A stretch of DNA of 64,000 bases from Candidatus Iainarchaeum sp. (GTDB taxonomy: Archaea > B1Sed10-29 > WALL01), in assembly GCA_023129115.1 (NCBI GenBank), contig JAGMCR010000004.1, positions 1 to 64,000 of the forward strand, given 5' to 3'. Position 1 is the stretch's first letter; each line of letters begins with the position of its first letter. A model generated the notes under the pieces. The model had not been told where the DNA came from, made no database searches, and worked only from the letters and a program-made list of their open reading frames with translations. This document shows, piece after piece, positions 1 to 37,075 of this stretch. The translations under genes were made by a program, and so were the position numbers.

Positions 1-360
1 CCCGCGGCGAAGCCGGCGGCACCCCAGAAGCCCACAGCAAAAGGCAGGGCGGCGCCCGCGCCAAAGGCGGCGGCACCCCCCAAAGCAAAGCCCACTCCCA
101 AGCCACGGCCGCCGAGCGAGTTCACCCCGGAGACCAAGAGGAGGCTGAGGCAGTTCGACAAGGAGCTTGCCGCCGCCAAGGCCCAGCTGGCGTCACTGTC
201 CGGGAAAAAGCAGGACGTGCTGGCAAAGGCGATTGCCGAGCAGGAGAAGAACATGGCGGCGCTCGACGACGCTGTCCGGAGCAACGACAAGGACAAGGCC
301 GGCGAAGTAAGCTTCCAGCTCCTGTTCAAGAAAGGCGAAATCAAAAATCTTCTGAAGTGA
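1..360 (+). CDS. C-terminal part of a Pro/Ala/Lys-rich protein with a helical tail (5' truncated by the window)
   Basis: Open frame 1 from the window start (PAAKPAAPQKPTAK...GEIKNLLK*), stop at 358-360. Confidence 0.6.
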   Translation, partial: PAAKPAAPQKPTAKGRAAPAPKAAAPPKAKPTPKPRPPSEFTPETKRRLRQFDKELAAAKAQLASLSGKKQDVLAKAIAEQEKNMAALDDAVRSNDKDKAGEVSFQLLFKKGEIKNLLK

Positions 361-9615: not shown

Positions 9616-9678
9616 GGGTGTAGTTAAGGGGTTTGTATATAAAAGACGTTACACAAAAAACCCGTGTGGACGCGTAGC

Positions 9679-9742
9679 AACCCTTTTCCTGTTACGGGAC
9701 CATAAAGGTCCCGAACGGTGGAAAAGCGTTGGCGGAAAAAGA
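9679..9742 (+). repeat. Structured repeat copy 1, flanked by 15-bp direct repeat GTGTGGACGCGTAGC (9664-9678 and 9743-9757)
   Basis: AACCCTTTTCCTGTTA[CGGGACC-ataaa-GGTCCCG]AACGGTGGAAAAGCGTTGGCGGAAAAA. Confidence 0.8.
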
Positions 9743-9746
9743 GTGT

Positions 9747-9903
9747 GGACGCGTAGCCTAGTTTGGATAAGGCACTGGCCTCCTATTCGGTTACGCCCGA
9801 GGGCGATGACTGTTCCTCTGTACCGAGCCACTTCGGTGGTGATGAGGTTATGAACAACCGAGGAGCCAGCCAGGAATCGGGGGTTCAAATCCCCTCGCGT
9901 CCG
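9747..9903 (+). tRNA. tRNA-Arg(CCT) with 82-nt intron (9786-9867)
   Basis: Acceptor GGACGCG/CGCGTCC, anticodon arm CTGGC CTCCTA^A GCCAG, T-loop TTCAAAT; BHB with central helix CTCC/GGAG and bulges TA^T, CC^A. Confidence 0.93.
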
Positions 9904-11352: not shown

Positions 11353-11531
11353 AGGGGGAGCTGTGCTCCCCCTGGCCCAGACGAACAACAACCGAACATC
11401 CTTTGGGATGTCCGGTATCCTGCGGGATGTACGTCATACCCTGGGAAGCCCACCCCCTCAATAATTCTGTACTAATTGTCTCTGGGAGCCTTCAGGCTCC
11501 CAAGCCTAACGTGCCAGCTTAGTTTAAGCTG
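11353..11531. repeat. Cluster of five short hairpins
   Basis: AGGGGGAGCtgtGCTCCCCCT; ACATCCtttGGATGT-type; ATCCtgcGGGAT; TGGGAGCCttcaGGCTCCCA; CAGCTTAgttTAAGCTG. Confidence 0.75.
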
Positions 11532-12621: not shown

Positions 12622-12626
12622 CGCCA

Positions 12627-12682
12627 TTTTTCGTCAAGGTTTTTCCACGGAGCGGCAGCTAGGCTGTAACAGAAAAAAGGTT
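12627..12682 (-). repeat. Structured repeat copy 3
   Basis: Reverse complement AACCTTTTTTCTGTTACAGCCTAGCTGCCGCTCCGTGGAAAAACCTTGACGAAAAA aligns with copies 1 and 2. Confidence 0.6.
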
Positions 12683-36918: not shown

Positions 36919-36992
36919 GGGGGGGTAGCTTAGCCAGGTAGAGCGCCTGACTGATAATCAGGAGGTCGAGAGTTCAAATCTCTCCCTCCCCA
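36919..36992 (+). tRNA. tRNA-Ile(GAT)
   Basis: GGGGGGG/CCTCCCC acceptor, CCTGA CTGATAA TCAGG anticodon arm, GAGAG TTCAAAT CTCTC T-arm. Confidence 0.96.
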
Positions 36993-36994
36993 CT

Positions 36995-37069
36995 AACCCT
37001 TTTCCTGCTACAAGGGGCTTGCTTGCCTGCAAACCCCTTGAACGGTGGAAAAGCGTTAACGGAAAAAAG
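36995..37069 (+). repeat. Structured repeat copy 2
   Basis: AACCCTTTTCCTGCTA[CAAGGGG-loop-CCCCTTG]AACGGTGGAAAAGCGTTAACGGAAAAA. Confidence 0.8.
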
Positions 37070-37075
37070 TATCGC

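Follow-up and report, generated by a model that had tools for sequence, protein, structure and literature searches.

A widespread archaeal repeat with a covarying hairpin is probably an introner-like mobile element

The window, i.e., the whole stretch of 64,000 nucleotides analysed here (contig C14 of a 1.25 Mb host genome in 19 contigs), contains three copies of a structured repeat that is best read as a non-coding, introner-like mobile element of archaea, with a probability that we put at roughly 0.7. That the repeats constitute a family of mobile elements is very probable, and when lodged in tRNA genes the element probably acts as an intron, judging from the sequences at its junctions. Its place beside tRNA genes would thus be due to a mobile, intron-forming element rather than to one regulatory RNA. 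The original prediction of a structured family in this DNA stands but was incomplete as a reading, since the element is mobile, present in many phyla and the core of apparent introns.

The hairpin family and its covariation

The element is about 50–150 nt long, non-coding, and has the core NRRCCCTTTT-(variable hairpin)-AAAAGCGYYN'RYGGAAAA, with T-tracts on both strands. Its conserved hairpin comprises an outer stem NRRC/GYYN', a C.C mismatch, a Y-tract/R-tract stem and a freely changing tip; the conserved purine tail RYGGAAAA comes next, and a second hairpin often lies beyond it. In the window, copy 1 lies at 9678–9739 on the forward strand (match to covariance model R1 at 9679–9743; E = 8.7e-15), copy 2 at 36994–37066 on the same strand (R1 match 36995–37070; E = 1.2e-13) and copy 3 at 12623–12682 on the reverse strand. 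R1 was built from 12 copies including copies 1 and 2, while copy 3, from outside its training set and earlier described as the more diverged one, is recovered with E = 2.7e-8; both the sequence and R1 place all three where they had first been reported. Copy 1 combines the outer stem CAAC/GTTG, the C.C mismatch, the stem CTTTTCC/GGAAAAG, the tip CGGGACC-ataaa-GGTCCCG and the tail GGCGGAAAA (predicted fold of −25.8 kcal/mol, z −3.4). Copy 2 has the outer stem TAAC/GTTA, the same lower stem CTTTTCC/GGAAAAG, recognized from the outset as common to the two, the tip CAAGGGG/CCCCTTG and the tail ACGGAAAA (−29.4 kcal/mol, z −4.4).

The compensatory change originally claimed is real and is cleanest in the outer stem, whereas the upper stems of copies 1 and 2 differ by wholesale replacement of the tip. 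The first outer-stem pair, read directly, changes from C-G in copy 1 to T-A in copy 2, and at the two pairs after it 23 and 18 of 72 sequences, respectively, carry AU/GC exchanges on both sides. Across these 72 distinct host-family sequences the stem shows 98 double-changed cells as compared to 33 ± 4 when shuffled and at most 23 when slid, in a test whose shuffle ignores relatedness and whose alignment had been fitted to the model. Judging by these exchanges, the structure is maintained across the family.

Over the whole genome, the 17-base core pattern with up to three mismatches occurs at 26 places as compared to one for the reversed pattern. Inspection confirmed 23 of these as true copies, with the 5′ half present too. 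The covariance-model search that had been suggested as a check retrieves 29 copies from the host genome at E ≤ 0.01 and 44 from the same-genus genome G001, in which some tandem copies border the ends of contigs and may be products of the assembly. At the gathering score, an Rfam search of the window matches tRNAs alone, with only far sub-threshold matches near copy 2, which agrees with the original prediction, in which no named RNA family was recognized. Abundant copies, strong covariation and the lack of an Rfam family are the reverse of the three outcomes named beforehand as speaking against the prediction.

The purine tail (GGAAAA...) is moreover the parallel complement of the pyrimidine strand on the 5′ side of the hairpin, with a mean contiguous run of 7.68 as compared to 6.26 ± 0.10 for shuffled partners, a signal that comes mainly from long pyrimidine tracts and from related lineages that are not independent. 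In asymmetric tracts, parallel and antiparallel matches run to 12 versus 7 (L203), 13 versus 7 (L215) and 17 versus 11 (L136). A triplex would be expected to select for mirror symmetry of this kind, and a triplex-like three-stranded core is a possible lead.

A second short repeat family of the form AACGTGCC-(covarying hairpin around AGTTT)-G was observed at 11508–11531 (+) in the window and at 24 further genomic sites. Its 25 copies at up to two mismatches genome-wide compare to none for the reversed pattern, and it at times forms composites with the element (L014/L044 and L050; L095 in G001).

Direct repeats, filled and empty sites and candidate enzymes

As first reported, two of the window copies adjoin tRNA genes: copy 1 precedes an intron-containing tRNA-Arg (9747–9903, +; Rfam tRNA, 49.7 bits; ARAGORN with introns allowed) and copy 2 immediately follows a tRNA-Ile (GAT) (36919–36993, +; ARAGORN; Rfam, 73.9 bits). 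Copy 3 sits between two convergent reading frames, which end 1 and 5 nt from its edges. Copy 1 is flanked by a 15-bp direct repeat absent from the original prediction: the left unit, GTGTGGACGCGTAGC, occupies 9664–9678 (+), its final C being also base 1 of the copy, and the right unit, at 9743–9757 (+), is by direct reading the 5′ end of the next tRNA gene. The two are identical at 15 of 15 positions, with the 99th percentile of a cross-pair control at 8, and the duplication, as read from the sequence, leaves the downstream tRNA-Arg gene whole. No clear direct repeat was found in the flanks of copy 2. All three window copies lie outside tRNA genes, and none was classed among those whose excision restores an RNA gene. 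Self-complementary CGCG followed by TA^G was observed on both sides of copy 1 (9664–9757), in register; a bulge-helix-bulge formed there could splice the copy out to give an intact tRNA-Arg, though the match may be due to chance.

Direct repeats scoring at least 12 flank 24 of 69 non-redundant copies in five host-family genomes, as compared to the 0.76 expected from cross-paired flanks. Copy 1 is among the 6 of 27 host-genome copies with such a repeat; the other 21 are without clear repeats, which may reflect either age or another route. The first five repeat-flanked copies, copy 1 among them, have direct repeats of 12–26 bp ending at, or a few bases from, the 5′ edge of the element, and examples reach 26 bp (L016/L039) and, in G001, 40–54 bp (L086 and L099). 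Copies in other archaea have them too (L112, L153, L159, L180, L209 and L214, among others), as do those of a Thermococcus-like order (L234, L235 and L267). In many cases the repeats make good a start codon or an entire tRNA. Because the interrupted gene is rebuilt by the duplication, insertion does little harm at operon junctions, in T-loops or where genes start. The notion that duplications begin at transcript 5′ ends was rejected, as antisense T-loop insertions begin near tRNA 3′ ends; selection for intact genes would account for both patterns. Also rejected was a guide-like role for stretches of the 3′ part that are reverse complementary to the 5′ flank: they are striking in L112 and L209, but over all loci their excess above cross-paired controls is slight and mostly due to tRNA acceptor stems. 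One copy with its direct repeat (L020/L042; G000:C3:2681–2740, −) lies in an open frame that reads through it without a stop.

Filled and empty sites coexist between pyrB and pyrI in the Thermococcus-like order, that of G023. The two genes nearly abut in most species (CTGGGGGTGCTGTGA, then ATG), constituting the empty site, and 7 of 30 loci carry an insertion of about 120 bp plus an 18-bp duplication. The core is found by pattern in L275, L280, L281, L298, L300 and L301, while L287 holds an insertion judged by eye to be degenerate. In L280, both pyrB and pyrI keep their ends because the 117-bp insert is bounded by two exact copies of CTGGGGGTGCTGTGAATG; the insert is an antisense element plus a second hairpin. 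All of these insertions are at one position and therefore may represent a single insertion with later losses or transfers. By eye, the inserts of L275, L280, L281, L298 and L300 also appear to contain an open frame of about 44 codons from an ATG overlapping the pyrB stop, which perhaps keeps translation coupled to pyrI. Elsewhere, in G073 (L254–L257), same-direction pairs of elements about 300–550 bp apart lie within longer palindromic repeats behind tRNA genes.

In being short, non-coding, dispersed and flanked by target duplications, the element resembles a MITE. One alternative is that it is an ordinary MITE or hairpin transposon, mobilized by an IS200/IS605-like or DDE transposase or by a tRNA-targeting tyrosine integrase present in the carriers. 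This would fit its palindromic form and direct repeats, the spacing of about 300 bp between composite copies, of which some have inverted ends, in one Thermococcus-like genome, and the core near terminase-like genes in an archaeal-like virus. We consider this unlikely. Most MITE-type transposon and integrase families make duplications of fixed length or none, while those of the element range from 12 to 54 bp. Further, while tyrosine integrases (Phage_integrase) are present in 9 of 13 carriers, G002, G003, G005 and G008 have no match; Y1_Tnp is absent from all carriers except G016, whose frame contains a stop, and DDE_Tnp_1 exceeds the cut-off in just 2 of 16.

More generally, none of the families searched (RVT_1, Y1_Tnp, DDE_Tnp_1, Cas1 and Phage_integrase) is common to all carriers, some of whose genomes are incomplete, such that a single absence is little proof. 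RVT_1 is absent from 13 of 13 element-bearing genomes in a set of 60, by a search that was positive in controls. Cas1 occurs in only 6 of 16 carriers and is missing from G000 and G001. The latter genome, with many fresh-looking copies, is also without RVT_1, Y1_Tnp and DDE_Tnp_1 and has only a partial integrase match. A non-exhaustive survey saw no autonomous element with shared ends and a transposase. Several candidate classes were set aside on these grounds: an IS200/IS605-type or REP element for want of a Y1 transposase, a CRISPR or casposon insertion for want of a consistent Cas1, and copies bounding a transposase gene, as the 2.8-kb pair in L272 encloses ordinary genes. An integron attC site (RYYYAAC/GTTRRRY boxes) was likewise rejected, given that AAC/GTT covaries to AGC/GCT, GAC/GTC and GGC/GCC and RRRY does not follow GTT.

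Copies in stable-RNA genes and spread across archaea

The named loci open to an excision test numbered 100. With the element plus up to 120 nt cut out, ARAGORN recognized a tRNA spanning the junction at 47 of them, the element being in sense orientation at 43 and antisense at 4; none of 352 shifted controls gave one. For 48 sense-oriented loci, a bulge-helix-bulge fit (a 4-bp helix between 3-nt bulges) that also gives back the tRNA is commonest with the cut 1–3 nt before the A of AACCC. This peak is broad, accounting at best for 26 of the 48 with G-U pairs allowed and for 9–11 with Watson-Crick pairs only, and not every locus has the strict motif. Rfam matches further place copies inside 23S rRNA (L118 and L196), 16S rRNA (L218) and RNase P RNA (L121, L131 and L135). 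The Methanophagales locus L121, with its element-interrupted RNase P RNA, separately contains a match to a group II intron domain (RF00029, 56 bits) at 51–125 (+).

Other copies stand behind genes rather than within them: among the copies that could be read in the Thermococcus-like order, 25 of 28 lie a few bases after a tRNA, those of four Methanophagales records (L119, L137, L148 and L201) about 4 nt after 5S rRNA, and several host copies within 1–5 nt of stop codons, one of them between convergent genes. These positions, together with the T-tracts on both strands, would suit a functional 3′-end element, i.e., a terminator or RNA-processing signal of tRNAs, 5S rRNA and mRNAs, that is kept and copied along with its function. 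We regard this as improbable, since it leaves unexplained the direct repeats, the filled and empty pyrB-pyrI sites, the copies that interrupt genes for tRNA, rRNA and RNase P RNA and the in-frame L020/L042; use as a terminator could be a later role for some copies. Another alternative is a SINE-like retro-element, whose RNA, perhaps an excised intron, would be copied by reverse transcription at a nick in the target. The duplications of variable length and the single variable end of this family are what target-primed reverse transcription typically leaves, and intron copies would supply the RNA. This is nevertheless very improbable, none of the tested carriers having RVT_1, which likewise sets aside a group II-derived element.

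The core is widespread in archaea, across many phyla. A scan over 85,488 species, each represented by a single genome, used the pattern ACCCTTTN{6,36}AAAGCGTTGAYGGAAA, for which we estimate fewer than one chance match; it yielded at least 116 loci, and 80 of 80 record titles among the matches listed are archaeal. Taxa among the matches listed include Diapherotrites, Micrarchaeota, Aenigmatarchaeota, Altiarchaeota, Woesearchaeota, Nanoarchaeota, Parvarchaeota, Methanophagales, Methanocellales, Thermoplasmata, Thermococcus and Bathyarchaeota, among others. A second model, R2, built from an alignment (A3) of 54 rows of which one (L016) came from a wrong-strand stretch, detects the core in 11 of the 19 genomes from the host class and in 28 of 41 from the Thermococcus-like order. 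A named Thermococcus record (L140) carries the element in the same post-tRNA position as the order of G023 does. In the viral collection (IMG/VR), two contigs identical around the core (L273 and L274) seem to represent a single archaeal-like virus, in which terminase-like genes lie downstream of the core and which might ferry the element from host to host; viral scans with a stricter pattern and with a GCTGGC variant returned no matches, nor did a search of a plasmid collection for the core.

Proposed mechanism and relation to known mobile introns

The sequences show that the element inserts with variable flanking duplications of about 12–54 bp; many of its sites are gene ends or lie within or next to genes for tRNA and other stable RNAs. 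On the favoured reading as an introner-like mobile element, insertion would proceed via a staggered break, with long overhangs, cut by an enzyme acting in trans; the odds of such trans-acting insertion at the DNA level seem about even to us. Where a sense copy lies inside a tRNA gene, its removal would restore the tRNA, and the junctions could pair as a 4-bp helix flanked by 3-nt bulges, a fit by which the host splicing endonuclease and ligase most likely cut the element out as an intron. Splicing would shelter copies in RNA genes, while those behind tRNA or 5S genes and stop codons may persist by being harmless or by serving as 3′-end elements. More tentatively, the family could be an archaea-wide introner that is mobile without its own or a standard transposase, possibly via host tRNA-splicing enzymes acting on its RNA, that has a perhaps triplex-like core and that is a source of many tRNA, rRNA and RNase P RNA introns.

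Comparable phenomena have been described. Large-scale transposition of tRNA introns was reported in Thermoproteales in 2010, with a mechanism that a review gives as still unknown (PMC4090602). Like archaeal bulge-helix-bulge introns, the element occurs in tRNA genes at canonical and other positions, with similar sequences at different sites for which transposition has been proposed; unlike them as they are described, it has one structured core across phyla, also occurs outside introns and has flanking duplications. In eukaryotes, introners are mobile elements that create introns, and direct repeats near intron borders, some of them archaeal, are reported in the same source (PMC11782384). Our element shares with eukaryotic introners its short mobile sequence, insertion with direct repeats and predicted splicing-out; it differs in being archaeal and of the bulge-helix-bulge rather than the spliceosomal type, and we claim no kinship in sequence. 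Prokaryotic MITEs and REP or palindromic repeats are similarly short, non-coding, hairpin-forming, dispersed and moved in trans, but lack its long variable duplications, its conserved single-copy hairpin with purine tail and its occurrence as introns, and the Y1 or DDE partner was not found. In Caldiarchaeum, integrating elements are reported to disrupt tRNA genes and are a proposed source of a tRNA intron (PMC3293823). These too target tRNA genes and leave a duplicated tRNA fragment at the border, but encode a recombinase, whereas the present repeat encodes nothing, is far smaller and is also found in protein genes with unrelated repeats. Literature searches, with subscription papers and preprints outside their scope, did not find the core sequence, and those for archaeal introners and MITEs gave no description of the element in the sources covered.

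The element accounts for tRNA-adjacent repeats that lack a match to an RNA family. Target duplications, presence and absence between related species and copies in and out of introns make intron gain directly testable, including in an order that appears to include cultured Thermococcus. The element thereby offers a concrete source of new archaeal tRNA introns.
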